DNA from: Candidatus Microgenomates bacterium
GTDB taxonomy: Bacteria > Patescibacteriota > Microgenomatia > UBA1400 > UBA12108
Assembly: GCA_003576945.1 (NCBI GenBank)
Contig: QEVC01000006.1
Span: 1-45,748, forward strand
Direction of reading: 5' to 3'
Length of the DNA: 45,748 nt
Shown here: piece after piece, positions 15,528 to 45,534 of the stretch
How positions within the stretch are numbered: position 1 is the stretch's first letter
Layout of the letters: each line of letters begins with the position of its first letter
Notes under the pieces: generated by a model
Database searches by the model: none
What the model was told of the DNA's origin: nothing
Seen by the model: the letters and a program-made list of their open reading frames with translations, nothing else
Translations under genes and position numbers: made by a program

Positions 15528-16094
15528 ATGAAAAAGACGAACTACGTGATTTCGGCGGCACTAGTTGTTGTCGGGGTTGGTATTTTTTTATTCTCCCTAT
15601 ATACCGCTTCGCTAGTCGGACTTAGGAGACAACTAGGGATAGTGGGGGGAGATCTAGCACAAAGCGTTGATGTTAATAGACTATATCGTGGTCTTGTTGA
15701 GGTGGGGACGATGCCAAGTTGTGATTATTGGAAATCGATTATGCCAGTTCCCCGCTATATTTTTGCAAAACCACTTGAGAAACTACAATTAGGTAGAGAG
15801 CTATCGAGTAGGCGAGTGAACTGTAGTTTAACCTACCTGCTTGCAGGAAACTCTGAGCGGGGGGTATATACAATGTTAAAAGCGCTCAGGTACGATCTGG
15901 CGGGTGGGCAAATAATGAATGAATTAATGAAAGAGAACAAGGAACATTGTGGGTTACTACTTACTAATGCAACTTATGGAATGGTTGAAACTTATCTGGA
16001 GAGCGTCGAAGGCAATGCAAGGGGGATTATTGAGCGAGAGTATCAGGAGATTATGCGAGTTAACCGTCAGAACGCAGAGGTGTGTGGTTTGTAG
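15528..16094 (+). CDS. Hypothetical protein with N-terminal membrane anchor
   Basis: 188 residues. A hydrophobic segment (YVISAALVVVGVGIFLFSLYTASLVGL, about 6-32) is followed by a mostly helical extracytoplasmic part. That part has four scattered cysteines (SCDYW, NCSLTY, HCGLLL, VCGL), which could form disulfides. I do not recognise a family. It follows the peptidase gene by 9 nt and precedes the riboswitch leader. Confidence 0.65.
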   Translation: MKKTNYVISAALVVVGVGIFLFSLYTASLVGLRRQLGIVGGDLAQSVDVNRLYRGLVEVGTMPSCDYWKSIMPVPRYIFAKPLEKLQLGRELSSRRVNCSLTYLLAGNSERGVYTMLKALRYDLAGGQIMNELMKENKEHCGLLLTNATYGMVETYLESVEGNARGIIEREYQEIMRVNRQNAEVCGL

Positions 16095-16158: not shown

Positions 16159-16290
16159 AACAAGTTAACAAGATATTGGATAAGGAAGTGGGGTGAAAAT
16201 CCCTCGCTGTGCCGCAACGGTTAAAGTCCGGAACTTGCCAATATTCTTGCCTTATTACGCGTCCTCCGAGCGAGAGGATGAAGGGAGTGT
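16159..16290 (+). promoter_or_regulatory. Cobalamin riboswitch, small env8/Cbl-II-like type, with kissing loop
   Basis: P1 pairs caagatattgg (16169-16179) with ccaatattcttg (16238-16249), with one bulge. The core holds aggaagtggggtgaaaatcc and cgcaacggttaaagtccgg, which align with the conserved core of small cobalamin riboswitches. The canonical B12-box peripheral domain is missing. A downstream hairpin, tcctc (16262-16266) with gagga (16274-16278), has the loop cgagcga. Its agcga is complementary to tcgct (16204-16208) at the L5 position. That matches the known L5-L13 kissing interaction, which places the start region of the next gene under control. Assigned by eye from motifs. Confidence 0.85.
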
Positions 16291-17678
16291 TTGTGATTAG
16301 AGATTTAGAAGTAGAGTATATTGTCTCTTCTTGGAAAGATACTTCAAGTTCCAATCAATTGAGATTTAAGAGAGATTTTGATTCGAGTTTGTTTACTGAA
16401 GATACTCCGTTTGCTGAAATTGCCCACAAAGTTACTACGTACATGGGTGAAAAACTGTTTATGCCAGGATACCAAGAGATTCAAATTGGATTTGATGGAT
16501 CACTTGACCCAGAGTATCTGGGCTTAATGCAAAAATCGATTGATTATTGGCGGGAGCATGGTGACTATGAAACCGCTTATCGATTTGAAATGGAGCTAAC
16601 CGGCATGATGCGACTAGCCAAGCAAGTGGGTATGCAAATTGCAGTCGATCGAAATAACCCAGCACGACATATTATTGGCAGTGACCCCGGAATTACATAT
16701 GGGACAGAGGAGGGGGCAAAATCGGTGGTGTTTGTGGGGGAAGTTAAGCGACTTACTGAGAATGGAATAGTGTACGGACAGTATGCAATACCACTTGAGT
16801 TGTTAGAGCTATTGTCGCTATACGAAAAGATGTCAAAAATCTCAACAGTTGAACTGACGAATATTACAGCTGAAGAACTAGTAGCATATGCCGCCCCCCT
16901 AATTGGGACTTTAAATGAGGTAGCAGAGATTTTTGGACAAGGGAGCTGGGATCAGGTTGTAGAAAAAGCGGCTAATCAACTGAGACTTGAGAAAGATCAA
17001 TATGGGTTGGAGCGCAGACAAGAGCTAATAAGATATTACTCAAACTTAATCTATAAAGCTCTACAAGAAGGTAGGGACAGAGAGTATCTGAATATTATCG
17101 ATGAGTCCATGAGAAGAGTGTTTGCGCTTGAGGCAGGGGCAAATGAACTACTGGGCCTTAGAGAAGATCGAGTTAAGGAGATTGTAGAGCGCAATCTAAT
17201 AGACGTTAAAGCAGAGAAGATGGGCTTGTTTACTAAGCAATTAAGTAGAGAGCAGATAACTTGGTTTGAAGAAAATTATCAAGTCTCTATGAGTGAGGTA
17301 ATGGGGTACCGAGACTGGATGACGACTGTATTTAGAACAAATCCACTTGCCAGAAGGGCACTAGTTACTGGTTGTGGAGGAGGGATTAATATAGATTTGA
17401 ACAGTAACCCATGGGGTGGCATAGAGTCATGGGCGGGGGGATATGCATACGACGTACCAACCGAAGTCGGGTTTGAGATGATGGGTAGTTTTGGCTACCA
17501 AGAAACAGTTACAGAGACAGCAGAAACTCTTAATGAAGGGGATACAGCTTGTTACCGTTGCCCTGTATGTGAAAGCGAGGGGCATAATCCGGGTGGTGAA
17601 GTTAAAAGAAGGGGATCGTATCTAGTGTGCCAGGATAAACCGGACCAACATTATATTCAATATAGCTCTTCAGGCTAG
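16278..17678 (+). CDS. Unknown protein directly downstream of the cobalamin riboswitch
   Basis: 466 residues from ATG 16278. GTG 16287 (8 nt after GAGAGGA in the riboswitch hairpin) and GTG 16293 (5 nt after AGGGAG) are equally plausible starts. Any longer frame would overlap the riboswitch and is rejected. The protein looks soluble, largely helical and acidic. It has a Gly-rich TGCGGG stretch and a C-terminal candidate zinc site (CYRCPVCESEGH with a later Cys in LVCQDK). No family recognised. Riboswitch control and its place ahead of nrdR and three B12-dependent RNR genes suggest a role in cobalamin use or nucleotide reduction, but that is inference only. Confidence 0.75.
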   Translation: MKGVFVIRDLEVEYIVSSWKDTSSSNQLRFKRDFDSSLFTEDTPFAEIAHKVTTYMGEKLFMPGYQEIQIGFDGSLDPEYLGLMQKSIDYWREHGDYETAYRFEMELTGMMRLAKQVGMQIAVDRNNPARHIIGSDPGITYGTEEGAKSVVFVGEVKRLTENGIVYGQYAIPLELLELLSLYEKMSKISTVELTNITAEELVAYAAPLIGTLNEVAEIFGQGSWDQVVEKAANQLRLEKDQYGLERRQELIRYYSNLIYKALQEGRDREYLNIIDESMRRVFALEAGANELLGLREDRVKEIVERNLIDVKAEKMGLFTKQLSREQITWFEENYQVSMSEVMGYRDWMTTVFRTNPLARRALVTGCGGGINIDLNSNPWGGIESWAGGYAYDVPTEVGFEMMGSFGYQETVTETAETLNEGDTACYRCPVCESEGHNPGGEVKRRGSYLVCQDKPDQHYIQYSSSG

Positions 17679-17716: not shown

Positions 17717-17770
17717 TTGACGCGCACTGCCAGTAGGGGTTACGGTAGATAAGCCCTACTATATGTAGGG
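17717..17770 (+). promoter_or_regulatory. candidate promoter and palindrome (NrdR-box-like) before nrdR
   Basis: TTGACG (17717-17722) and TACGGT (17741-17746, 18-bp spacer) could form a promoter. The perfect palindrome CCCTAC-tatat-GTAGGG (17754-17770) lies at the expected start site. Its AT core resembles NrdR operators, although only one box is evident. The palindrome followed by TTTT could instead be a weak terminator of the upstream gene. Confidence 0.4.
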
Positions 17771-17798: not shown

Positions 17799-18254
17799 AT
17801 GCAATGCCCATATTGTCACCACGATGATACTTCGGTACTCGAGTCACGAATTACGGCTGAGGGTGGGGCAATGAGAAGGCGAAGAGAGTGTGTGAAGTGC
17901 AACAAAAGGTTTACTACTTATGAGCGAGCGGAAGGGGTGGACATTAGGGTGGTAAAAAAGACTGGCAAGATAGAGGATTTTGATAGAGAGAAACTCAAGA
18001 GAGGCGTGATGAAGGCAACTTGGAAGAGGCCCGTTACAATGGAGCAGATTGAGACAATGGTTGATGAAATAGAGCGGATACTAAGACGTAAGACCACTAC
18101 TGAAGTGAGGAGCTGGGAGATCGGAAATCTTGTGATCAATAGATTAAAAAAGATTGACCCACTCGCGTATTTACTCTTTGCTAGTGTTTATCGAGAATTT
18201 GAGAATTTATCTGATTTTGAAGAAGAAATAAAGAAACTTAAGGAAACAGAATAA
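17799..18254 (+). CDS. nrdR: Transcriptional repressor NrdR
   Basis: 151 residues, full length. The N-terminal zinc ribbon uses C3, C6, C31 and C34 (CPYC and CVKC), followed by the typical RRRRECVKCNKRFTTYER. The rest is an ATP-cone (about 49-139) that senses ATP/dATP. NrdR represses ribonucleotide reductase genes. AAGGAG at 17783-17788 serves as ribosome site, 10 nt before ATG. The stop overlaps the next ATG by one base (TAATG), tying it to the RNR genes it should regulate. Confidence 0.95.
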   Translation: MQCPYCHHDDTSVLESRITAEGGAMRRRRECVKCNKRFTTYERAEGVDIRVVKKTGKIEDFDREKLKRGVMKATWKRPVTMEQIETMVDEIERILRRKTTTEVRSWEIGNLVINRLKKIDPLAYLLFASVYREFENLSDFEEEIKKLKETE

Positions 18255-21200
18255 TGAAAATTACAAAGCTAAATAAAAACGCTGCGGCAATCATGGTAAA
18301 CCGCTATAGCTTGCGAGACGAATCGGGACATCCGGTAGAATCACCAGCCGAGATCCTAATGAGGACTGCAAGAGTCGTAGCGGAAGCTGAGAACAACTAC
18401 AGAAGTAGTGGCGAGACCTCGATGGAGATCAGAGAAAAGTTTTTTGAGATGCTTTACGAGATGCGATTTGTGCCCAATGGTCGAACTATGGCGAACGCAG
18501 GGACAAAATACGGCCAACTTGCGAATTGTTTTGTGCTACCTGTGGAAGATGACTTGGGCAAGGGAACGGATTCAATTTTTTCAGTCCTACGCAAGGCGAT
18601 TCTTACACTCCAAACGGGAGGCGGGGTTGGATTTTCTTTTGGAAGAATTAGGCCGAAAGATGCCTCGATAAGTACAACAAAAGGCAAAGCAACGGGGGCG
18701 GTTTCTTTTATTAAGGTTTATGACACCGCATTTTGGGTGATCGGACAGGGCGGGGGGAGGCGAAGTGCGGCGATGGCAGTTTTGCCAGTTTGGCATCCAG
18801 ACATATACGAATTTGTGAGATGTAAAGCAACCGAGGGACAGATTACCAATTTTAATATCTCGGTTGGACTAACGGATGAATTTATGCAGGCTGTTGCCAA
18901 AGATGAAGACTTTACCTTGCGTCATCCTGAAAATGGGGAGATGTACCGGATGGTCCCAGCACGCGAGCTGTTTGCCGAGGTTGTGAAGTACGCTCATAAA
19001 AATGGAGAGCCAGGTGTGTTATTTTTAGATGCTGCCAATCGCAGTAACCCTGTACCACACCTCTATAAGCTTGAAGCAACTAACCCTTGTGTTACTGGGG
19101 AAACACTGGTAGCTACTCCAAATGGATGGAGAGAAGTTAAAGAGATTAAAGAGAATGATGAGATAAATACTGTGCTCGGGGTTGGAAGAGTAAAGACCGT
19201 TGAGACTCATGACGACACAGAAGTGTATTTAGTAAAACTTTCAGACGGCGGAGAGATTAAGGTAACAGCGGCACATCAGTTTCATGTTCGTGACACGAGG
19301 AGAAAATATTTTATTGAGAAGAGACTAGATAAAACTAAAGTCGGAGAGATGGTACGAGTATGCCGTGGGCAATTACCCAATAATCAACCACCCAAGAGTA
19401 ATGTAAAAATCGATGATAAGGACTACGGCTTTCTGGTAGGACTTCTCCTAGGAGACGGGTGTTATACGGAAAGAGCGTTATCCAAAAACGTGGTGAGAGT
19501 AAGTACTCATGACGATGAAAAAGTGTGGAATGACCTGATTACGCAAAAGTTTGCATTGGTTGGAGCCACAGACATGTATAAATATGTCAACAAAAATAGC
19601 CACTCAATGATGATGGATCCGAAACCAGGTAAAGTGGTAGCAGAATGGGTCAAATCTCTCAAATTGGTGCCTGCTATGAGTTTAGACAAGGATATACCGA
19701 TGGAGTACGTGAATAGTAATGCTAGTTTTTTGGCTGGTATGTTGGATGGGTTATTTAGTACTGATGGGAGCGTGGATTTATCGACTAACCATCCGATTGT
19801 GAGATTCCACACAGGAAGTCCAAGGCTAGCTGAGAAAGTGAGGTTAGTGTTACTAATGTTTGGGATTCATGGTAGAGTCATTAAATCCAGAAGGGTATCA
19901 CATAAAAACGCGGGAGGTCGAGTAATATCGAATAAAAATCCCAGGTATGACGTGGTAATTGTAGGAGAGAGCTTTGGGAGGTTTTTTGAACAAATTAAGC
20001 TAAGCCATCCTGACAAGCAAGCTAAAATGAGGGAAGCTGCGCTTAAGACTAATTTTACCGGTGGCAATTGGGCAGCCAAAATTAAATCAATCGAAAAAAT
20101 CGGCAGAGAAAAAGTTTATGACCTATATGAGGAAAGTAGTGACACTTGGATTACGAACGGCTATGTGTCTAGAGGATGTGGCGAACAATTCTTGGGTCCA
20201 TACGAGAACTGTTGTTTGGGTAGCATAAATTTACGAGAACATGTAAAACGAATAAAAGGAAATGGATATGTGGTGGACTGGAATAAATTGGCTGAGACAG
20301 TGTCCTTAGCTACTCGTTTTTTGGACAATGTGGTAGATGCGAACAAATATGTGTCGGCAGTTCCTGAGCTAGAAGAGGCCGCGCACAAAGTACGGAGAAT
20401 TGGACTATCAGTCATGGGACTATCGGACATGATGTATATGACCAATGTGCGGTATGGGAGCACTCAGGGTCAGGAGTTGGCATCACAAATAATGGAGTTT
20501 ATTAGATACCATAGTATGCTCGCTTCCATTGAACTCGCACGAGTGAGAGGGCCTTTTCCTGGAATATCTGGGAGCATTTATGACCCACAGAAACTGAGTT
20601 GGACTGTGCCCAAGCCAGTTGTACGGCATGTTAGTAATTTTGGACGACCAGAACTAGACTGGAAGCTAGTAATAAAAGGTCTCAAAGAATATGGCATTCG
20701 AAATGGGGCCCAGACGACAGTTGCGCCAACAGGAAGTATTGCAACGATTTCAGGGTTAGAAGGTTATGGGTGTGAGCCTGTCTTTGCGCTATCTTATGTG
20801 CGCCATACAAGAGAAGGAGCAGAGAAAGAGGGGAAGGAATGGAGAGAGATGTATTATGAAAGCGCCTTATTTGAAAGTGCAATGAAGAGTGTGGGAATGA
20901 GTAAAGCACAAAGAAATAAACTATTTGAACAAGTTAGAGAAAATGGAGGAAGTATTAAGGGAATTGCTGGGGTGCCAAAAAAGATAGCAGAGACTTATGT
21001 GGTATCAGCCGATCTGAGTGTAGAGGAACACGTTAGGATGCAGGCGGTAATGCAAGCATGGATAGACAACTCAATTAGCAAGACCATCAATTTTAGTAGT
21101 AAGGCAACCGTAGATGATGTAGCGAGAGCTTATCTGCTCGGATGGAAGCTTGGGCTTAAGGGCATGACAGTGTACGTAGAGGGGTCGAGAGAGCAGGTAG

Positions 21201-21349
21201 TACTCGAAAAAAAGAGTGCCCCATTTGAAACGAAAGCAGACAAGCAAGTAACCTCGGAGGAGCTGTGTCCGGAATGTGGAACACCCATGCGGAGAGAAGA
21301 GGGGTGTTCGACGTGTCCGAGCTGTGCCTACTCAAAATGTGATAAATGA
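18254..21349 (+). CDS. nrdJ: Class II (adenosylcobalamin-dependent) ribonucleotide reductase 1, with intein
   Basis: 1031 residues: about 668 of RNR plus a 363-residue intein (279-641). RNR motifs: C92 in [21 protein letters not shown], thiyl-radical Cys642 in NP/CGEQ (interrupted by the intein), the [10 protein letters not shown] cysteine and phosphate-binding [10 protein letters not shown]. There is no N-terminal ATP-cone. The C-terminus is a Cys-rich redox/zinc tail ([12 protein letters not shown]). It reduces ribonucleotides using a 5'-deoxyadenosyl radical from AdoCbl. First of three tandem RNR genes after nrdR. Activity depends on splicing, which is doubtful because the intein lacks the terminal Asn. 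Confidence 0.93.
19088..20176 (+). mobile_element. Intein 1 (DOD/LAGLIDADG), in RNR 1 at the catalytic Cys
   Basis: 363 residues starting with Cys1 ([14 protein letters not shown]). Block B is TAAHQFHV. Two endonuclease motifs are present: [10 protein letters not shown] and [13 protein letters not shown]. Block F is [17 protein letters not shown]. The C-terminal junction reads YVSRG/CGEQ instead of a His-Asn end before the +1 Cys. The +1 residue is the host's thiyl-radical Cys (NPCGEQ). The missing Asn would block the normal branch-resolution step. Confidence 0.9.
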
Positions 21350-21403
21350 TCAGACAACCGGAAAACTCAGATAACCGGAATGTCAGAAAATCGGAGAGTC
21401 AGA
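21349..21403. repeat. dispersed TCAGAAT/TCGGAAT repeat, copy 3
   Basis: The 54-nt gap between RNR 1 and RNR 2 begins with cagacaaccggaaaactc, identical to copy 2. It ends with the unit tcggagagtcagaATG, so the element itself supplies GGAG and the spacing for the RNR 2 start. Confidence 0.6.
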
Positions 21404-24400
21404 ATGAGTAAACCAAAAATAATCGAGCCAAAACTGACGAAAAATGCGCAAGAGGTAGTAAAGAAGCGATATTTGCGGACAGATATGAATGGCAAAGTGG
21501 TGGAAACTCCCGGAGAGATGTTGTGGAGAGTCGCGTACCATATGGCCAAGCCAGAGGTTAACTGGGCCGGTAATGGGATAGTAATGGAGATGGCAACTAA
21601 GTTTTATGAGAGAATGGTTAGTCTCAAAATGGTGTGTGCAGGCAAGGCAATGTTTGAGGCAGGTAATCCAGGGGGAACAGGACAGTTATCTTCTTGCTTT
21701 GTTTTGCCAATTGAAGACTCGATTGGGAAAATCTTTAAAACGCTCGGGGACGCGGCGGTGGTGCATAAAAATAACGGAGGAACTGGCTTTAACTTTAGTA
21801 AAATTCGTCCACACGGGGATAAAGTAAAGAATGTACCAGGTGCCGCTTCGGGACCGGTTGATTTTATTAAAGCTTACTCAGCCGCGCTTGCTCAGATACT
21901 GCAGGGAGCAAAAAGGCAAGGTGCTAATATTGCCATTTTAAATGCTGATCATCCGGACATAGAGGAGTTTATTGAGCTAAAAGCACAGGATGGGACGATT
22001 AAAAACTTTAACGTGTCGGTTGGTGTAACAGACTCCTTTATGGAAGCAGTGGAGTCAGACAAATACTGGAATTTGGTAAACCCAAGAAATGGTGAGATAG
22101 TGAAGAAAGTTAAAGCGAGAACACTCTTTAATAAAATCGCTGAGGCAGCATGGAGGACAGGTGACCCAGGACTCATGTTTTTAGATAATACGGAGCGCGG
22201 AAACACGGTCCCCAATTTTGGGAAACTAGATGCAACTAATCCGTGTGTGACAGGCGATACACTGGTGGCAACAGACAAAGGGTGGCAGCGAATAGACGCT
22301 TTGGTAGGTCAAAATCCACAAGTAATGACTGACCTGCGCGTGGTGGAGAATGAGGGTACTCAGTTACATCAGACTACGCATGTGGTAAATACGGGCGAGA
22401 AACAAGTATATAAAATCTCGACAAAAAGCGGATACGAAGTAAAAGCAACAATAGACCACAAAATTATGACTGCGAGTGGATGGAAAGAAGTCAAGGACTT
22501 GGTGATTGGAGAGCGCGTGTTGATTCAACATGGTGAGGGTAGATTCGGGACAAGGAGTGAATTAGATTTTGTGTGGGAAAACCATAAACTAGGTAATAAT
22601 GGAGTGGGATACGACTTTGAATTACCTACTAAGTGGAGTAAAGAGCTGGGGATGTTTCTTGGCTGGTTAGTTGGGGACGGTTTTATTCGTGAAGAAACAA
22701 ACAAACATGGTGCTTATTTAAACTTGACTTTTGGTAGAGGCAAGGAGAAAGCCAGAGATTACTTTTTGGAACTGCTTACTAAATGGTGTCGAACTGCTAG
22801 AGTTCATGAAGCAACTGAACGAACTAGGCAAATATTTGTATCAAGCAAGTTTGTAGTGGATTATTTTTTGAGACTAGGAGTAGGGACAAAGCGATCAGAA
22901 TTTAAGCGGGTCCCGGTTTGTATCTATACAGCACCTAAAGAAGTAGTGGTTGGATTTTTGCAGGGATTGTTTTCCTCTGATGGTACTGTGGGGTATGTGA
23001 AAAATAAATCTTCGTACGTGAGGCTTACGAGCAAATCACGAGATTTACTCAAAGATGTACAGCTGCTATTATTGCAGTTTGGAATAAAGGCCAGAATTTA
23101 TGACAGATCAAGAAGTGAGAGAATAAACTTATTTCCTGAATACATAGATAAAAATGGAGAGTCTAAAAAATATTCGTCTGATGGAGCGTTGTGGGAACTG
23201 GAAATTTCTAAAGAAGTAGTAATTAAGTACGTGGATGAAATTGGCTTTTTGTTTGGTATGCATGACGATAAGGTAAAATTGCTACGAAATAAATCCTACT
23301 ACTCAACAACATGGGATGATCCTATTGAATCAATTGAAAAGTTGGGAGTGGAAACGGTCTACGATTTGACTGAACCAGTGACTCATTCATTTATCGCGAA
23401 TGGGATAGTCGTGCATAATTGCGGAGAGATTGCGCTTTTTCCTTATGAATCATGTAACCTAACTAGTATTGATTTGGCGAGACACTTGAAGAAGAGCAAG
23501 AAGGGCTATGAGATCGATTATAAAGAGCTTGGCGAGACAGTGAGACTAGGGGTCAGATTCCTGGACAACATGATTGAGGTTAATGCGTATCCAATCACTG
23601 AAATTGAGGCAATAGTCAAGAATGGTAATAGAAGGATCGGACTGGGTGTAATGGGTTTTGCGCACGTCTTGTATCGCATGGGAATTCCATACAATAGTAA
23701 TGACGCAGTTAAACTAGCAAAAGAGTTGTCGAAATTTATCTACGAGACGGCGGCGGAAATGTCCTCTGAACTCGCAGAGGTGAGGGGCAACTTTAATAAC
23801 TGGGATCTCTCAATTTACCCAGCTCTCGGTCAACCGATGCGCAACTGTGCGGTGACGATGATTGCGCCAACTGGTACGATTTCGATTTTGGCTGATACCT
23901 CCTCGGGAATTGAGCCGGTGTTTTCTTTGGTTACAATCCGTCGTACATTTTATGAAGAAGACCGATCAAACCACTCAACGAAACAACTAGTGATGGTGGA
24001 TCCAGTTTTTGAAGAATACTTGGAAAATAAATTTTCAAATCTTAAATCCTCAAATTCGCAAATGAAAATAATATTAGAACAAGTAGCGGCAGGAGACTAT
24101 TCAGGATTAACCGCAAAAGAGAGAAAATTATTTGTAACGACACATCAGATCCAACCAGAGTGGCATGTAAAGATACAGGCAGCGTGGCAGAAGTATTTTG
24201 ATAACTCAATCAGCAAGACAGTTAACTTTGGACATGCGGCAACAGTTGAAGATGTTAAGACAGTCTATATGCAGGCATGGAAACTAGGGTGTAAAGGGGT
24301 TACGATTTATCGGGATGGGAGTAAGGGAGATCAGGTATTATCGACGGTGGGATCGGGTAGTGCGACGGAAGCACGGCATGACCCTGAGTTAGAGCATGAT

Positions 24401-24490
24401 GAGATGGTGTGTCCAGAGTGCGGCGGTAAACTGAGTAAACAAGATGGATGTTCTAAATGCATAGATTGTGGGTATAGCGTATGCGGATAA
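21404..24490 (+). CDS. nrdJ: Class II ribonucleotide reductase 2, with intein
   Basis: ATG 21404 follows GGAG by 7 nt and gives 1028 residues; an in-frame ATG at 21380 lies within the repeat. The intein occupies 281-672, leaving about 636 residues of RNR. RNR motifs: C98 in LSSCFVLP, NNGGTGFNFSKIRP, NP/CGE with thiyl Cys673, YESCNLTSIDL, and APTGTISILAD. There is no ATP-cone. The C-terminal tail is CPECGGKL and CSKCIDCGYSVCG. It overlaps RNR 3 by 10 nt. The motif after the Cys is CGEI rather than CGEQ, so it is clearly diverged from its two neighbours. Confidence 0.93.
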   Translation: MSKPKIIEPKLTKNAQEVVKKRYLRTDMNGKVVETPGEMLWRVAYHMAKPEVNWAGNGIVMEMATKFYERMVSLKMVCAGKAMFEAGNPGGTGQLSSCFVLPIEDSIGKIFKTLGDAAVVHKNNGGTGFNFSKIRPHGDKVKNVPGAASGPVDFIKAYSAALAQILQGAKRQGANIAILNADHPDIEEFIELKAQDGTIKNFNVSVGVTDSFMEAVESDKYWNLVNPRNGEIVKKVKARTLFNKIAEAAWRTGDPGLMFLDNTERGNTVPNFGKLDATNPCVTGDTLVATDKGWQRIDALVGQNPQVMTDLRVVENEGTQLHQTTHVVNTGEKQVYKISTKSGYEVKATIDHKIMTASGWKEVKDLVIGERVLIQHGEGRFGTRSELDFVWENHKLGNNGVGYDFELPTKWSKELGMFLGWLVGDGFIREETNKHGAYLNLTFGRGKEKARDYFLELLTKWCRTARVHEATERTRQIFVSSKFVVDYFLRLGVGTKRSEFKRVPVCIYTAPKEVVVGFLQGLFSSDGTVGYVKNKSSYVRLTSKSRDLLKDVQLLLLQFGIKARIYDRSRSERINLFPEYIDKNGESKKYSSDGALWELEISKEVVIKYVDEIGFLFGMHDDKVKLLRNKSYYSTTWDDPIESIEKLGVETVYDLTEPVTHSFIANGIVVHNCGEIALFPYESCNLTSIDLARHLKKSKKGYEIDYKELGETVRLGVRFLDNMIEVNAYPITEIEAIVKNGNRRIGLGVMGFAHVLYRMGIPYNSNDAVKLAKELSKFIYETAAEMSSELAEVRGNFNNWDLSIYPALGQPMRNCAVTMIAPTGTISILADTSSGIEPVFSLVTIRRTFYEEDRSNHSTKQLVMVDPVFEEYLENKFSNLKSSNSQMKIILEQVAAGDYSGLTAKERKLFVTTHQIQPEWHVKIQAAWQKYFDNSISKTVNFGHAATVEDVKTVYMQAWKLGCKGVTIYRDGSKGDQVLSTVGSGSATEARHDPELEHDEMVCPECGGKLSKQDGCSKCIDCGYSVCG
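22244..23419 (+). mobile_element. Intein 2 (DOD/LAGLIDADG), in RNR 2 at the catalytic Cys
   Basis: 392 residues, from CVTGDTLVATDKGW to the canonical end FIANGIVVHN before the +1 Cys. Block B is TIDHKIM. Endonuclease motifs are MFLGWLVGDG and FLQGLFSSDG. It uses the same insertion point as intein 1 and appears competent for splicing and homing by motif content. Confidence 0.93.
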
Positions 24491-27400
24491 ATAAAATTCT
24501 TAAAAGAGACGGCAGAGAAGTAGAGTTTTCAAGGTCCAAGCTTGCAGAAGCGATTTGGAAGGCAGGAAGAGAAACTCGCGAATTTGATGAAAAAGAGGCA
24601 AAGCGACTCGCAGAAATTACGGCTGCCCTAGTTGAGAAATCATTAAAAGATAAAGAGATGGTAACAGTTGAAAAAGTGCAGGATTTTGTAGAACAAGTAC
24701 TCATGGCGGCAGGACACTACCAGACAGCAAAGGCCTACATTCTGTATCGTGCAGCACGGAGTGAGGAGAGGCGGGTAGAGCGGATTATAGGAGTAAAGGA
24801 TGATCTTAACTTAACGCCGAATCAACTAAAAGTTTTACGTAATCGATATCTACTCAAAGATGAAGATGGACGAGTAATTGAGACACCTTCGGAAATGTTT
24901 AGAAGAGTAGCTAAGAATTTGGCAATTGTGGAAGCGGCCAGTAAAAGAAAGAAGATAGAAGACGAGTTTTACGAAGTAATGTCTCGTTTAGAGTTTTTGC
25001 CAGCAGGGCGAACTCTTAATAATGCTGGCACTCCTCAATCTCAGCTAGCGAATTGTTTTGTGCTCCCAGTTGAAGATTCGATGGAGGGGATATTTGATGC
25101 AGTTAAATGGATGGCAATGGTGCACCAGCGAGGAGGGGGTTGCATTGCAGCGGGGTCTAAAGTCTTTACTTCTTTTTGCGGACTTGAGAACTTTGAAGTT
25201 CTGTATGAACGCTTGGGTGGAAAGCAGGCTGAAAAATGGGAAGAGAACGGATGGAAGATCTCTCTTGAAGACAAAAATATCAAAACGCTAGCACTTAACC
25301 CCTATTCTGGTCAGTATGTGCAGGAGAGGATAACTGATATCTGGCGCTATGAATTGCCCAAAGAGAGAATTTTCACTATTAAGGCTCAGGGGGGACTCAC
25401 GGTTACTACAAGCGACTGGCATCCTTTCTTTGTGTTTGAAAATGGGGAAATTGTCGAGAAAAGGGCGGATGCAATTGTTGAAGGCGATTTGTTAGTTAGT
25501 ACAAATCCGAGTATTGTGCAAAACTCCTGGTTATTTAACGAGTATCAAAAATTTGAAGAGAGAAAAATAGATGAAAAGATTGGTTGGTTGGTTGGATATA
25601 TCCTGGGAGATGGATCTTTTGGAAAAGCAAAAACATCGAGTAAGAAAGCTGGCGGTAGCTATATTAGACTACGATTATTTGATGGATTAGAAGATAACTT
25701 GGAAAAAGCTAGACAAATTTTACAGGAAATAACTAAAGAAGGAGTGAAAATCCAGAAAGACAATAGAAGTAAAACACGCTATATTGCTACAACAAATAAA
25801 AAAATAGTTCCATGGTTACAAAGACTAACTGAAATTGATGGTCCTAAGAAAGATCGATTACATATTCCAGCTTTGTTAATTAAATCTCCAATTACTGTTG
25901 TGAGCTCCATGTTGGCAGGACTACTAGACTCTGATGGGTATGTAGCTAATACAAGAAAGCGGGTAGATTTTGCTACAGAAAGTCCCGTATTGGCTGATCA
26001 AGTAGCAGGGCTATTGTCTCTTTTGGGAATTCATAGTGCGGTACGGCAGCGGAAACCAAGAAAAGACTATTGGAAGTTAATGTATGAGGTTAAGCTAGAT
26101 AACCCAGATAATTTGAACTTGTTGTATAAGTATTTATCTCCACACATGGCGCATAAAGAAAAACGATCTCGGCTTACCAAGCATGTAGAATCAGCTGGTC
26201 AGCTAAATGACATAACTTCACCTCTGCGCTTCAACCACTTGGAGCAATATCTCATCAAAGTTGGAGTGCCAGTTGTTTCTCGGGCAATACACAGATCTCC
26301 GATTACCGTAGAAGGGGAAAAATTTTGGCTACACAGATTGAAGCAGGGTGGGACATTATCAGTCAACACAGTTGCGAAGCTATTATCTGCTCTACTTAAG
26401 TTTGCTAATTGGAACACAGGAGAGAAGAGAGTATTACGCTCATGGTTATTGGCTCACCAATCATTTCGTCCAGTGGTTAAGGTAGAGAGATCAAAAAGCG
26501 GAGGTGAATTTTATGATTTTACGACCGAGAAACTACATAACTATTTGGCAGGGTCTCATGGTTTGACGGCGGTGCATAATACGGGTTTTAACTTTTCAAA
26601 ACTAAGACCCAAAGGGGATGTGGTAACAAAATCGACGGGAGGATTTGCGACAGGGCCCGTCTCATTTATGAAGGTTTTTGATATTGCAACCCGTCAAGTG
26701 ATGCAAGGGGGTAAGAAGCGCGGAGCCAACATGGGAATACTTAACGTAGACCATCCTGATATTTTGGATTTTATTTCGGCTAAGAGCGAACGAGGTGAGA
26801 TTGAGAACTTTAATATATCAGTAGGGGTTACAGACGACTTTATGAAGGCGGTTGACCAAGATCTAGACTGGCAGCTGCGTAACCAGCGAACGGGCGAGGT
26901 GGTACAGACTATTAGGGCCAAGACCCTGATGGGACAGTTAGTCTCGATGGCGTGGAGAACGGGAGATCCAGGCCTAATATTCCTAGACCCAATTAATCGT
27001 AACAACCCACTACTTGCCAAGTATGGGCGAATTGAGGCGACCAATCCGTGTGGCGAGCAGCCGCTACATCCGTTTGATGCCTGTAACTTAGGATCGATAA
27101 ATTTGGCTAAGTTCGTAAAGCCGTATAGTAGTAAATCCGTAAATCAGAAAAAAGAAGTTGATTATGAGCGGCTTAGACATGTAGTTAGAACGGCAGTGCG
27201 CATGCTGGATGACGTGATTGATGCTTGCCGATACCCACTACCACAAATAACAGAGACGGTTCGGGCAAATCGAAGAATAGGGCTCGGGGTAATGGGTTGG
27301 GCAGACATGCTTTACCAACTGCGTGTTCCGTATGACAGCGAAGAAGGCATTAAGTTGGCGAGAAAAATAGCGAAATTTATCCAAGATGAATCCTGGCAAA

Positions 27401-28185
27401 TGAGCGAAGAGTTGGCAAAAGAGAAAGGGACTTTCCCCAGGTGGAAAGAGAGTAGTTTTGTAAAATCAGGGAGAAAAGTGCGTAATATAGCGATTACGAC
27501 GATTGCGCCAACTGGGAGTATCTCGATGCTCTCTGATGCCTCTTCAGGCATTGAACCAGTTTTTGCTTTAGCTTTTACTAAGAATGTTGTGGAGGATGCA
27601 GGACTTTCTTATATTAATAAGTATTTTGAAGCAGAGCTTGCAACATCACTCTGGGCAGATGGAGATCACGAACATAAAGTAAGAGATCGCATAGTCCGTG
27701 AAGTGGCGGAAGCAGGGAGTGTAGCACACATCTCGGGGGTTCCGGAGGAAGTTAAGTCAGTTTATCGAACAGCACATGATATTTCACCTGAGTGGCACGT
27801 GAAGATGCAGGCAGCATGGCAAAAATATACGGACAATGCGGTATCCAAAACTATTAACTTCCCCAATTCGGCCACAATAGATGATGTTGAGGCGGCATAC
27901 ATGATGGCGTGGAAGGCAGGATGTAAGGGAATTACAATCTATCGCGATGGGAGCAAGGATGTGCAAATTCTCTCAGTGGGGAGTGAGAAGAAAAATGAAA
28001 ATCAGGGTAGTCAGATAATACAAAGTAAGATAAAGATAGAATCTCTTAAAGAGCGCGGTGAACGGTTGAAAGTAAAACCAGCGGGTAAGCACTTAGAGAT
28101 ATGTCCAGAGTGTGGAGGAAAACTCGCCATAGAGGAGGGGTGCGCGAAGTGTTACGGATGCGGATTCTCGGTATGTCAAGGATAG
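24481..28185 (+). CDS. nrdJ: Class II ribonucleotide reductase 3, with ATP-cone and intein
   Basis: 1234 residues. An N-terminal ATP-cone (about 1-95, KILKRDGREVEFSRSKL to AYILYR) gives allosteric ATP/dATP control, which the other two copies lack. The intein occupies 221-700, leaving about 754 residues. RNR motifs: C192 in [21 protein letters not shown] (interrupted), intact NPCGEQ with thiyl Cys857, FDACNLGSINL, and APTGSISMLSD. The C-terminal tail is CPECGGKL and CAKCYGCGFSVC. A non-conserved linker rich in Lys, Glu and Ser precedes the tail. It overlaps RNR 2 by 10 nt and ends 18 nt before maf. Confidence 0.94.
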   Translation: MRINKILKRDGREVEFSRSKLAEAIWKAGRETREFDEKEAKRLAEITAALVEKSLKDKEMVTVEKVQDFVEQVLMAAGHYQTAKAYILYRAARSEERRVERIIGVKDDLNLTPNQLKVLRNRYLLKDEDGRVIETPSEMFRRVAKNLAIVEAASKRKKIEDEFYEVMSRLEFLPAGRTLNNAGTPQSQLANCFVLPVEDSMEGIFDAVKWMAMVHQRGGGCIAAGSKVFTSFCGLENFEVLYERLGGKQAEKWEENGWKISLEDKNIKTLALNPYSGQYVQERITDIWRYELPKERIFTIKAQGGLTVTTSDWHPFFVFENGEIVEKRADAIVEGDLLVSTNPSIVQNSWLFNEYQKFEERKIDEKIGWLVGYILGDGSFGKAKTSSKKAGGSYIRLRLFDGLEDNLEKARQILQEITKEGVKIQKDNRSKTRYIATTNKKIVPWLQRLTEIDGPKKDRLHIPALLIKSPITVVSSMLAGLLDSDGYVANTRKRVDFATESPVLADQVAGLLSLLGIHSAVRQRKPRKDYWKLMYEVKLDNPDNLNLLYKYLSPHMAHKEKRSRLTKHVESAGQLNDITSPLRFNHLEQYLIKVGVPVVSRAIHRSPITVEGEKFWLHRLKQGGTLSVNTVAKLLSALLKFANWNTGEKRVLRSWLLAHQSFRPVVKVERSKSGGEFYDFTTEKLHNYLAGSHGLTAVHNTGFNFSKLRPKGDVVTKSTGGFATGPVSFMKVFDIATRQVMQGGKKRGANMGILNVDHPDILDFISAKSERGEIENFNISVGVTDDFMKAVDQDLDWQLRNQRTGEVVQTIRAKTLMGQLVSMAWRTGDPGLIFLDPINRNNPLLAKYGRIEATNPCGEQPLHPFDACNLGSINLAKFVKPYSSKSVNQKKEVDYERLRHVVRTAVRMLDDVIDACRYPLPQITETVRANRRIGLGVMGWADMLYQLRVPYDSEEGIKLARKIAKFIQDESWQMSEELAKEKGTFPRWKESSFVKSGRKVRNIAITTIAPTGSISMLSDASSGIEPVFALAFTKNVVEDAGLSYINKYFEAELATSLWADGDHEHKVRDRIVREVAEAGSVAHISGVPEEVKSVYRTAHDISPEWHVKMQAAWQKYTDNAVSKTINFPNSATIDDVEAAYMMAWKAGCKGITIYRDGSKDVQILSVGSEKKNENQGSQIIQSKIKIESLKERGERLKVKPAGKHLEICPECGGKLAIEEGCAKCYGCGFSVCQG
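25141..26580 (+). mobile_element. Intein 3 (DOD/LAGLIDADG), in RNR 3 at the GGG/TGF site
   Basis: 480 residues, from CIAAGSKVFTSFCG to LTAVHN, with +1 Thr. Block B is TTSDWHPFFV. Endonuclease motifs are WLVGYILGDG and MLAGLLDSDG. A large extra region lies between the second motif and block F. The insertion point (between GGG and TGFNFS) differs from inteins 1 and 2, and the matching sites in RNR 1 and 2 are empty. Confidence 0.93.
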
Positions 28186-28875: not shown

Positions 28876-29469
28876 ATGAACAATGGGCTAATTTACGTTT
28901 TTACGGGAGAAGGAAAGGGTAAGACAAGTGCGGCTTTGGGGGTGGCGACTAGGTCACTACTACTTGAGAAGCGGGTTGTGTGGATCGCGTTTTATAAACA
29001 GGAATCATGGGGACTGGCAGAAGCGAAATTGAAAGGTAAATTTGAGAATTTAGAAATGGTCTTTGGCGGGCGTGGATTTAGGATTAGCAACTTTGATAAA
29101 AAGATAATGAAAGAGGGAAAAGAATTAAAACTAGCGACTGTTGGTAATGGGGCAAGGGTGGTTGACACCGCGAGTGAGGAGGAGCATTTGGCGGCAGCGA
29201 CTAATAACCTAGAGCTGGCAAGCGAGCGCTTGAAAGACAAGCCATTTTTACTCGTGATGGATGAAGTTTTGAATGCGGTTAGTGAGGGTATGGTCGACCC
29301 CAGAGAACTAGTAGAGTTGCTGGGCAAGCGGGGCGAAACACATATTGTATTAACTGGGAGAGGAATCTCTGAGCAGATTGAGGATTTAGCAGATTTGGTG
29401 ACGGAGTGTAAGAAGATTAAACACCCATATGACACAGGAAAACTTGCAGTTGCGGGACTAGATTTTTAA
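28876..29469 (+). CDS. cobO: Cob(I)alamin / corrinoid adenosyltransferase (CobA/CobO/BtuR family)
   Basis: 197 residues. P-loop GEGKGKTSAALG (11-22), LVMDEVLNAV, VLTGRG and the C-terminal ADLVTECKKIKHPYDTGKLA signature are the family hallmarks. It transfers the adenosyl group from ATP to reduced corrinoid, producing adenosylcobalamin. That is the cofactor needed by the three upstream class II RNRs, so the placement makes metabolic sense. No other cobalamin synthesis genes are seen here, which fits salvage of external corrinoid. Confidence 0.92.
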   Translation: MNNGLIYVFTGEGKGKTSAALGVATRSLLLEKRVVWIAFYKQESWGLAEAKLKGKFENLEMVFGGRGFRISNFDKKIMKEGKELKLATVGNGARVVDTASEEEHLAAATNNLELASERLKDKPFLLVMDEVLNAVSEGMVDPRELVELLGKRGETHIVLTGRGISEQIEDLADLVTECKKIKHPYDTGKLAVAGLDF

Positions 29470-29520: not shown

Positions 29521-29889
29521 GTGGTAGATAATAAAAAAGAAATTCAACCAAGACCAGTAGAAAGTGCACAGATTAGAGTTGAGGCACCAAAACCAGTTGA
29601 GACACAGCCTGAGATAGAATCATGGATGCAGAAGATTGAGCGAAGATTTGCTCGAGTGCCTAATAAGACTGTCACGCCGATGGACGATAAGGTGGTGGTT
29701 CAACAACCTCAATCTCAGCAGCCACCGGTAACCATGCCGATTAATCAAACTCAGATGCAGGCTGGAAAAGTAGCCAAGCCAGACGAGGGAATAGCGTGGC
29801 TTGTAACATGGGTCGTTCGACAAATCAAAATGCTGACTAAACTGGGCAGACGCGTAAGATTACAAGATGTGCCGGAGATTAAGAATTAG
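29521..29889 (+). CDS. Hypothetical protein upstream of the TraD/VirB4-like ATPase
   Basis: 122 residues from GTG 29521, preceded by AGGGGGG. The N-terminal two-thirds is Pro/Gln/Lys-rich and probably disordered. The C-terminal part (GIAWLVTWVVRQIKMLTKLGRRVRL) is an amphipathic, basic helix that may contact membrane or a partner. The gene lies 39 nt before the ATPase gene and is probably cotranscribed. Family not recognised. Confidence 0.6.
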   Translation: MVDNKKEIQPRPVESAQIRVEAPKPVETQPEIESWMQKIERRFARVPNKTVTPMDDKVVVQQPQSQQPPVTMPINQTQMQAGKVAKPDEGIAWLVTWVVRQIKMLTKLGRRVRLQDVPEIKN

Positions 29890-29928
29890 TATTTAGTATA
29901 TGGTATATAGAAGATAGGAAGAGGGGTA

Positions 29929-32256
29929 ATGGAAAATCTGGATCAAATATCACAAGTAATGACAAACCTCGCTTACGCATTGGTGTTTTTGCTGATTGCA
30001 TTGTCGGCACTAGTTGCTCTAGGGTATGCGTTTTTACTATGGTTTCGCAACCGTAATCGTGAGGAATATAGTCTCTCTTTTGTAACTCTTGAGGTAGCAC
30101 TGTCCCGCGACAACGAAATTAAGATTGATGCAGCAGAGCAATTGTTTGCGAGTCTTTACTCAGTGAAAAATGAGGAATGGTATGCATTCCTATTATCAGA
30201 GCACGCAGTTTCTTTTGAGATCGTTGGTAAGAAGGAAGATATAAGATTTTATGTGTCTGTACCACATGAGCTTATGGAGTTGGTTGAGAAACAGATCCAT
30301 GGAGCATATCCTGGAGCCGAGATAAAAACAGTGGAAGAGCCAACAATATTTACCGATGGTGGCAAGGTTGCCTACGAGAGTTTGGTTAAATCGAGTTCAG
30401 GTTATTTTCCCATTCAATCTTTCAGAGATTTGCCAACAGACCCACTTTCGTCGATTACGTCGTTTATGGCTAAGATGCGAGAGGGGGAGGGAGCGATGTT
30501 GCAGGTGGTTGTTTCGCCTGCTTCCCACTCGTGGGGGGAGAAGGGGCATAGCTATATCAGTAATGCCAAAAAGAATGAGAGCAACCCGGAGAAAGCCAGC
30601 TATAGTGTGGACCCAAAGAGACTCGAATCGGTAGAACGTTGGGCGGGAAAACCGAGTTTTGAGGTCTCAATCAGGATGGTGGTAAATGCGCCAACAAAAC
30701 ATGAGGCACATTCACTCCTCAAGCAGTTTGTCGGAACATTCTCGCAGTTTGCTGGACCTTATAACAAGTTTAGTGCGCAAAAGATTTGGCTCAAAAAGTT
30801 ATTCATGATTGATTTTATTTATCGCTACCAGGCCATGTTTAGAGGCAAGAGCATTCTGAATGCCGAGGAGCTCGCGACTGTGTTTCATTTCCCTAATAAA
30901 CAAGTTGAGACACCTCATATCCATTGGCTAACAGCCAAGAGCGCACCGGCTCCGGCGCAGATCCCTCAATCTGGATTATTCCTCGGTAAGAGTGTGTACC
31001 GTGGGCTGTCGCGAAATATCTATATTAGCGACAAAGACCGGGCGCGGCATATGTATATCATCGGAAAGACGGGAACAGGAAAATCTGAGTTTTTGATGAA
31101 CATGATCCTCCAGGATATCAAGGCTGGGAAGGGAGTATGTTTTATTGATCCTCATGACTCAGTAGAAAAACTCTTGGAGTACATCCCGCCGGAGCGGGCA
31201 GAGGATGTAATCTATTTTGATCCATCAGATACGGATCGACCCATGGGATTGAACATGCTTGAGGCCAAGACAGAGGAGGAGAAACAGTTTGTGGCCTCCT
31301 CCATTATTAATTTGATGTACAAACTGTACGATCCGCACAAGACAGGTATTATCGGCCCGCGTTTTGAGCACGCGATCCGCAACGCGATGATGACGGTAAT
31401 GAGTGAGCCTGGGGCGACATTTATCGAGATTGTGCGGGTACTGACGGACCAAAAGTATTTGCAAGAGCTACTGCCCAAGGTGCAGGATCCGATCGTGCGG
31501 AGGTATTGGACGGACCAGATCGCCCAGACCTCGGACTTTCACAAATCAGAAGTCTTGGACTATATCGTTTCCAAGTTTGGTCGTTTTATCACAGACAAGA
31601 TGATGCGAAATATTATTGGACAATCAGAGTCGGCGTTTAACTTTCGTGATGTGATGGATAACGGGAAAATCCTTTTAATTAACCTGGCTAAGGGAAGAAT
31701 TGGGGAAGAGAACTCGGCTTTCTTAGGACTGATTTTAGTGCCTAAGATCTTGGTGGCCGCGATGAGTCGGCAGGATATTCCAGAAAAAGATCGACGCGAC
31801 TTTAACCTGTATGTCGACGAATTTCAGAACTTTGCGACTCCTGACTTTGCAACAATTCTGTCTGAGGCGCGTAAGTACCACCTTAATTTGACGGTGGCCA
31901 ATCAGTTTATTGGACAGATTGAAGAAGAGGTGAAGAATGCGGTATTTGGTAACGTGGGTACGATGATTAGCTTCAGAGTGGGTGTGCAAGATGCTAACTT
32001 CTTGCAACATGAATTTGCACCTACTTTCTCCGAGGCGGACCTCACCAACGTAGAACGCTACCATACATTTATCAAAACGATTGTGGATAATGAACCGATG
32101 CCACCTTTCTCAATGGACTTAACGAGAGATGTTGAAGAAGAGAGGAAGCTAGCCAACCCCAAACTGGCCGAGATGATCCGCAAGCTTTCGCGTCTTAAAT
32201 ACGGTAAAGACAAGACGATACTTGAGGTAGAGATCGCCAAGCGAGCAAGACTATAG
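29929..32256 (+). CDS. TraD/VirD4/VirB4-like secretion or conjugation ATPase, membrane-anchored
   Basis: 775 residues. An N-terminal transmembrane helix (ALVFLLIALSALVALGYAFLLWF, about 17-39) is followed by a ~300-residue domain common in Patescibacteria homologues. The P-loop ATPase has Walker A GKTGTGKSE near 379 and Walker B LYVDEFQNF near 627, with FIDPHDSVEKLL and a conserved VANQF stretch near the end. Such proteins pump DNA or protein across membranes or power pilus-like machines; the substrate is unknown here. Start ATG follows AGAGGGG. Confidence 0.85.
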   Translation: MENLDQISQVMTNLAYALVFLLIALSALVALGYAFLLWFRNRNREEYSLSFVTLEVALSRDNEIKIDAAEQLFASLYSVKNEEWYAFLLSEHAVSFEIVGKKEDIRFYVSVPHELMELVEKQIHGAYPGAEIKTVEEPTIFTDGGKVAYESLVKSSSGYFPIQSFRDLPTDPLSSITSFMAKMREGEGAMLQVVVSPASHSWGEKGHSYISNAKKNESNPEKASYSVDPKRLESVERWAGKPSFEVSIRMVVNAPTKHEAHSLLKQFVGTFSQFAGPYNKFSAQKIWLKKLFMIDFIYRYQAMFRGKSILNAEELATVFHFPNKQVETPHIHWLTAKSAPAPAQIPQSGLFLGKSVYRGLSRNIYISDKDRARHMYIIGKTGTGKSEFLMNMILQDIKAGKGVCFIDPHDSVEKLLEYIPPERAEDVIYFDPSDTDRPMGLNMLEAKTEEEKQFVASSIINLMYKLYDPHKTGIIGPRFEHAIRNAMMTVMSEPGATFIEIVRVLTDQKYLQELLPKVQDPIVRRYWTDQIAQTSDFHKSEVLDYIVSKFGRFITDKMMRNIIGQSESAFNFRDVMDNGKILLINLAKGRIGEENSAFLGLILVPKILVAAMSRQDIPEKDRRDFNLYVDEFQNFATPDFATILSEARKYHLNLTVANQFIGQIEEEVKNAVFGNVGTMISFRVGVQDANFLQHEFAPTFSEADLTNVERYHTFIKTIVDNEPMPPFSMDLTRDVEEERKLANPKLAEMIRKLSRLKYGKDKTILEVEIAKRARL

Positions 32257-45242: not shown

Positions 45243-45534
45243 TCCCCTGTAGCTCAGTCGGCAGAGCGCCTCGCTGTGTGGTAACGCAGCTTTTCACAGT
45301 AATGTGAATTGAAAAATCGGGCTAATTCGGGGAAGTCCCGCCAAGGCGGGATAATCCCGAGCTAAATTTCTTTTGCTATGCAATTGGACTTGTCCTGAGC
45401 GTAGTCGAAGGATAAACGTGTAGAGACTATATACCCGAGAGCCATCACAATGGGTCATGAGATAGTCCAGGCCTTTTGGTAACAAGAGGGTATCTGTAAC
45501 GAGGATGTCGTAGGTTCGAGCCCTACCGGGGGAG
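45243..45534 (+). tRNA. tRNA-Asn (anticodon GUU), interrupted by a group I intron
   Basis: Exons 45243-45277 and 45497-45534. Joined, they give acceptor TCCCCTG/CGGGGGA with discriminator G. The D-arm is GCTC/GAGC. The anticodon arm CCTCG/CGAGG surrounds CTGTTAA with anticodon GTT, and the T-arm is GTAGG-TTCGAGC-CCTAC. The body resembles E. coli tRNA-Asn closely. The intron splits the anticodon between U35 and U36. CCA is not encoded. Confidence 0.9.
45278..45496 (+). ncRNA. Self-splicing group I intron (IC3-like) in tRNA-Asn
   Basis: 219 nt. P1 pairs exon GCTGT with ACGCAGC (45284-45290), placing the required U-G wobble (45277 with 45286) at the 5' splice site. The intron ends with G (45496). 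Conserved core strings are present: gtgtagagactata (P3-J-P7 side) and gagatagtccagg (P7 3' strand), matching the Azoarcus pre-tRNA-Ile intron. No endonuclease ORF is present. Peripheral loops contain cccgccaaggcggga and gtcctgagcgtagtcgaagga-type hairpins. Confidence 0.9.

Follow-up and report, generated by a model that had tools for sequence, protein, structure and literature searches.

The window analysed here (45,748 nucleotides of a Candidatus Microgenomates bacterium, Patescibacteria; contig QEVC01000006.1, our G000:C29) carries, directly behind a cobalamin riboswitch, a gene whose product appears from one profile and from synteny to be a strongly diverged member of a protein family that we name X. 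The same kind of evidence indicates that X is an undescribed, class-wide family and not a lone ORFan; we found no description of it in the literature that could be searched. As far as sequence can tell, the link of the family to B12 is strong and its linkage to ribonucleotide reductase (RNR) is secondary, and X probably helps these ultra-small, B12-dependent Patescibacteria to take in or activate B12. We give about even odds (0.5) to the more specific reading that X is a cytosolic, zinc-ribbon-tailed Microgenomatia protein that handles cobalamin and feeds an adenosyltransferase when B12 is scarce.

The X family and its link to B12

A profile of nine X members found matches in 40 of 374 genomes of the class, and the named records that encode X belong to Levybacteria, Roizmanbacteria and other Microgenomates, with one labelled Parcubacteria. 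Two matches from the same phylum but outside the class, found in a phylum-wide sample, were rejected because both lie in long ORFs and align only over the zinc ribbon (~40 residues). The clearest members share the motifs YLxEYR, RExAExxG and WxSPPGxxxxGYGxYxF, a later Glu-Asn, GSCG and a C-terminal CxxC...CxxC; the conserved core, with invariant polar residues, is a domain separate from the ribbon. Among 18 homologues no Pfam or NCBIfam family scored over its curated cut-off, PHROG matches were weak and scattered, and PADLOC gave nothing. No stretch of 19 residues above hydropathy 1.6 was present in 47 X proteins, nor was a signal peptide.

Profile and structure searches, proposed in the initial annotation as a check on the window protein, were carried out. 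Pfam returned no family for the window protein, whatever the E-value, and NCBIfam gave only a noise match; the model of the protein itself (pLDDT 51) was too poor to search. For the AlphaFold2 model of the L143 member (pLDDT 79, pTM 0.69), Foldseek returned nothing at E <=0.001 in the PDB or among viral models, the best match of an X homologue model having an E-value of 0.034 and a TM-score of 0.12. Compared with these two collections, X may represent a new fold. The initial view that the protein belongs to no recognised family is therefore borne out for Pfam and NCBIfam, while the isolated orphan has become part of an undescribed class-wide family with a 44-member profile.

Of 28 X loci that had been located purely by sequence, 25 have a cobalamin-clan riboswitch according to Infernal; a contig end truncates one of the three negative loci, which makes it 25 of 27 testable ones. 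Eighteen of these riboswitches scored above the gathering score and seven below it (E 2.7e-5 to 0.024). All 25 lie on the strand of X, 18 directly before X and seven before a pduO-X pair. In the reverse direction, an X gene directly follows 7 of the 13 AdoCbl-II matches in 53 related genomes (in the G039 case a longer ORF with a partial X match). Homologues located away from cobalamin genes, which would have spoken against a B12-linked function, were looked for; across the family the riboswitch association prevailed.

A gene for a PduO-type ATP:cob(I)alamin adenosyltransferase lies beside or near X, along with a B12-dependent RNR, in 18/37 loci, as judged from mechanically called ORFs in many fragmented MAGs, with identities tested on representatives (PduO confirmed by TIGR00636/PF01923). 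X itself shows no similarity to PduO. In L139 (JACOYD010000017.1) the two are joined in one ORF of 538 aa, the first 179 residues of which match TIGR00636 with an E-value of 6.5e-61; this is a single case in one MAG. PduO has known C-terminal partner domains, and Pfam detected none of these in the fusion. In the window genome, which was searched, there is no PduO, and a CobA-type enzyme unrelated to PduO is encoded 11 kb downstream of X, so two unrelated adenosyltransferases accompany the family.

The B12 link would also fit an accessory role of X in cobamide uptake or salvage, together with the import genes encoding DUF4430 and DUF6580 (ECF-like) or in corrinoid remodelling, without service to the adenosyltransferase. 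Genes repressed by B12 are typically those for uptake and salvage. DUF4430 and DUF6580 (ECF S-like) genes adjoin X in G174, G145 and G385, and G007, which has no X, has a riboswitch before a DUF4430 gene with DUF6580. We nevertheless consider this role rather unlikely, because X has neither signal peptide nor membrane segment and because a step in the cytosol is what the PduO-X fusion and the many neighbouring pduO genes suggest.

Two further sets of riboswitch-controlled genes came to light. At L018 (5764-8501) an AdoCbl-II riboswitch precedes three genes, whose products are a DUF4430 protein, a repeat protein of 436 aa and an ECF S-like protein with DUF6580; this is a candidate operon for B12 uptake in Microgenomates. 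A second orphan family of ~240 aa, mostly helical and with a IELRKMFGVPLSLLAMPVF-like motif, stands behind AdoCbl-II matches in members of the order that lack NrdJ over the cut-off (Table 1); its L022 protein has no Pfam match.

Ribonucleotide reductase genes near X

X might instead directly assist class II RNR, be it as chaperone, cofactor-loading factor or thiol reductant, its ribbon resembling the Cys-rich tail of NrdJ. RNR genes lie less than 6 kb away in 18/37 independent loci, and X and NrdJ occur together above chance: 13 of 27 NrdJ-bearing genomes have X, vs 3 of 26 others (53 genomes; Fisher p 0.006). The X profile also weakly matches NrdJ C-terminal ribbons; the match spans only ~40 residues, may reflect convergence, and X has no RNR barrel. 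The overlap is incomplete, with no strong X match in 14 of the 27 NrdJ-bearing relatives and no strong NrdJ match in 3 of 16 genomes with X, indicating that X is not indispensable.

Gene order speaks against direct service to RNR. In the seven riboswitch-pduO-X loci the gene just upstream of the riboswitch is nrdJ, so the riboswitch cannot control nrdJ there and no co-regulation of X and nrdJ by it was found in these loci; several other X genes have a B12 riboswitch and no RNR nearby. In the window, nrdR and the RNR genes come after X. That the riboswitch targets X or pduO-X suggests that B12 handling comes first, with RNR as the beneficiary, and we regard direct service to RNR as unlikely, slightly more so than a role in uptake. 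A function linked to B12 or to RNR had been strongly argued from the window alone; for the family the B12 half of this argument stands and the RNR half recedes, in view of the nrdJ genes upstream of the riboswitch.

The X gene of the window and its surroundings

The window gene is an ORF of 466 codons from ATG 16278 to a stop ending at 17678 on the forward strand, in a frame that is open as far back as GTG 16209. With a codon log-likelihood of 0.13 per codon in its own frame (neighbouring genes 0.11-0.19; the five alternative frames -0.06 to 0.03), it is a real coding gene with codon usage like that of its neighbours. Its description as the first gene after a cobalamin riboswitch and before nrdR agrees with the ORF and with the RF01689 and TIGR00244 matches (Table 1). 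The leader (aptamer, hairpin, Shine-Dalgarno, GTG) is conserved in four relatives of the same family. In the hairpin, which is the probable expression platform, all 30 cells are paired across five genomes (100%) and both sides have changed in 3/6 pairs, a result equalled by 1/500 shuffles. The arrangement of GAAGGGAG followed by GTG is common to G001, G003, G004 and G005, and G005 has no ATG where the window has ATG 16278. Since the Shine-Dalgarno and GTG are kept as a unit, the start is probably GTG 16293, which shortens the protein from 466 to 461 residues.

Table 1. Features of the X locus in the window and members of the second orphan family
Feature	Position	Strand	Evidence or remark
AdoCbl-II (cobalamin) riboswitch aptamer	16173..16244	+	Rfam RF01689, 42.5 bits vs gathering 36.5
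6-bp hairpin between aptamer and Shine-Dalgarno	16261..16279	+	probable expression platform
Shine-Dalgarno-like GAAGGGAG	16280..16287	+	sequence; 5 nt ahead of GTG 16293
X protein	16293..17678	+	ORF, coding signal, family profile match, synteny; 461 aa from GTG 16293
Cys366	17373..17375	+	profile alignment of 'tGCGGG' to 'gsCGgs', matching the near-invariant GSCG Cys of the family; uncertain, as a second alignment (A4) puts the motif elsewhere
C-terminal Cys cluster CYRCPVC...C	17550..17630	+	sequence; diverged zinc ribbon without the last Cys
Conserved non-coding block	17717..17770	+	TTGACG-N18-TACGGT (promoter-like) and palindrome CCCTACTATATGTAGGG at 17754-17770
nrdR	17799..18254	+	TIGR00244, E 4e-55
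AdoCbl-dependent RNR (NrdJ) with intein	18254..21349	+	TIGR02504, LAGLIDADG_3, Intein_splicing
Second NrdJ with intein	21380..24490	+	profile matches
Third NrdJ, ATP-cone, with intein	24481..28185	+	profile matches
CobA/BtuR-type ATP:corrinoid adenosyltransferase	28876..29469	+	PF02572, E 6.5e-38
~240-aa orphan family, L019	5699-6478		AdoCbl-II match
~240-aa orphan family, L020 (241 aa)		reverse	AdoCbl-II match
~240-aa orphan family, L022	6063-6806		AdoCbl-II match
~240-aa orphan family, L023	6101-6811		AdoCbl-II match

The window protein is only remotely similar to the other members (about 15-22% identity). The near-invariant SPPG..GYG motif is absent from it (it reads GSDPG, with no GYG), and so is the complete CxxC...CxxC ribbon of its relatives. 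Its Cys cluster comprises Cys425, 428, 431 and 451, plus Cys366, the fourth Cys of the ribbon being missing; of the zinc site first proposed at the C-terminus, the cluster is there and the complete family ribbon is not. Single-sequence searches with the window protein found no homologue in 53 relatives or in the 374 class genomes, and a scan of viral contigs gave nothing; a G248 match (E 9e-4) was rejected as it falls in a coiled-coil ORF. Relatives were found by position. The slot between riboswitch and nrdR holds a protein of 350-460 aa with a C-terminal Cys cluster in G001 (same genus as the window), G003, G004 and G005 (same family) and G006 (same order), and a similar protein precedes nrdR in G019 and G008, with no riboswitch at the gathering score. 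In the order riboswitch, X, nrdR, B12-dependent RNRs, the window gene thus fills a place held elsewhere by clearer members.

It is nonetheless conceivable that the window protein is no X homologue at all and that an unrelated gene displaced X behind the riboswitch. Compared with X of the sister genome G001, 58.7% of aligned bases are identical, vs 59.3% in a shuffled control, between flanks that are 81-89% identical (leader 87%, following intergenic region 89%, nrdR 81%). In addition to the empty single-sequence searches, hhalign placed the protein at a probability of only 2% against the nine-member profile, and an order-level profile gave an E-value of only 0.08. Against this, the 44-member profile, built without the window protein, matched it among 969 ORFs with an E-value of 2.9e-9; the best domain (E 7.9e-9) covers 397 residues. 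The match outscored every RNR decoy, and its alignment takes in the R..E..G helix, the region of S.PG, and the CGG and CPxC motifs. A local stretch is shared with X of G005 (phmmer E 3e-4), and slot and length are the same. In line with the profile match above all decoys we assign the window protein to X, and displacement by an unrelated gene seems very improbable.

As one of the most diverged X members, the window copy looks either swapped or changed beyond recognition between conserved flanks. In other X pairs the rate of evolution exceeds that of PduO or RNR only moderately. In the window it looks as if the coding sequence had been replaced, with borders almost exactly at its start and stop, and the riboswitch in front of it had stayed. 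Conclusions drawn for the family are therefore less certain for the window protein, which possibly has a changed function in its genome. Elsewhere, the X proteins of L093 and L098, from genomes placed in separate families (G265 and G224), are 86% identical and have different surroundings, which could mean either horizontal transfer of X or mis-binning.

The non-coding block between X and nrdR is kept in five genomes in which the X coding sequence is not. Its conservation suggests a separate promoter for nrdR and the RNR genes; a consensus promoter scan scored its TTGACG-N18-TACGGT element below threshold. Read-through from X is possible. A terminator scan found no intrinsic terminator after X, and the palindrome CCCTACTATATGTAGGG in the block is a candidate operator or terminator for nrdR.

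The three AdoCbl-dependent RNR genes stand in tandem (18254-28185), each with its own LAGLIDADG-type intein, and one more NrdJ is encoded on contig C17 of the same genome; the NrdJ copies in the same slot of sister G001 are intein-free. A Maf-like gene also lies downstream of X in this cluster. CobA is followed by genes for a small protein of 122 aa and a VirB4-like ATPase (29521-32256), and comparable genes follow pduO-X in 14-16 loci of Levybacteria, a conserved neighbourhood. The protein of 188 aa encoded before the riboswitch (15528-16094) contains a single strongly hydrophobic segment, is conserved in five genomes of the family and has no Pfam family. A group I intron lies at 45268-45489 (Rfam, 66.6 bits).

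Proposed role of X

The features computed for X (family membership, riboswitch control, adenosyltransferase adjacency, one fusion, no membrane segment, no solved fold) are consistent with the following scheme. At low cellular cobalamin the riboswitch would permit translation of X, and in many genomes also of PduO. X would then bind the incoming corrinoid, perhaps via the near-invariant GSCG Cys and the SPPG..GYG loop, with a part possibly played by the zinc ribbon, and would hand it, in whatever redox or ligand state suits the reaction, to PduO (in Levybacteria) or CobA (in the family of the window). This adenosyltransferase would make the AdoCbl required by the NrdJ reductases. For the chemical step of X, a chaperone, a decyanase or a reductase partner are candidates. 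The fuller claim that X is a new corrinoid-handling fold performing an assimilation step found only in Microgenomatia (redox preparation or transfer to PduO or CobA), made only at B12 scarcity and open to allele replacement behind a fixed riboswitch, is put forward tentatively and is the less likely side of the question.

An instructive parallel is found in Bacteroidetes, where BtuH, a previously unknown protein encoded in cobamide loci that carry a riboswitch, proved to bind B12 via a domain without known structural homologue (PMC8941943). X resembles BtuG/BtuH in being an unknown protein of cobalamin-riboswitch loci, with no known fold and a patchy distribution; BtuH is a surface lipoprotein, whereas X lacks both a signal and a membrane segment and sits with adenosyltransferases. 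That X is a regulator, a zinc-ribbon adaptor binding nucleic acid or protein and not corrinoid, as its C-terminal ribbon and weak ribbon-type Pfam, PHROG and ribosomal-protein matches might suggest, is very improbable given that the conserved core, a domain of its own, has invariant polar residues and that X occurs fused to an enzyme of cobalamin metabolism. The cobalamin-handling role preferred here has its closest functional counterparts in MMACHC/CblC and MMADHC, cytosolic B12 processing proteins; the likeness lies only in the proposed readying of incoming cobalamin for adenosylation, as neither Pfam nor Foldseek (E <=0.001) connects X to them.

Patescibacteria have tiny genomes and obtain vitamins from partners, and many Microgenomates make their DNA precursors via B12-dependent reductases. 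To our knowledge, little is known about how Microgenomates take up and activate B12. The link between X and B12 can be tested with one purified protein by any B12 laboratory. Through three independent lines (riboswitch control, neighbourhood and fusion), X ties an unannotated family to the uptake or activation of B12 in these bacteria.
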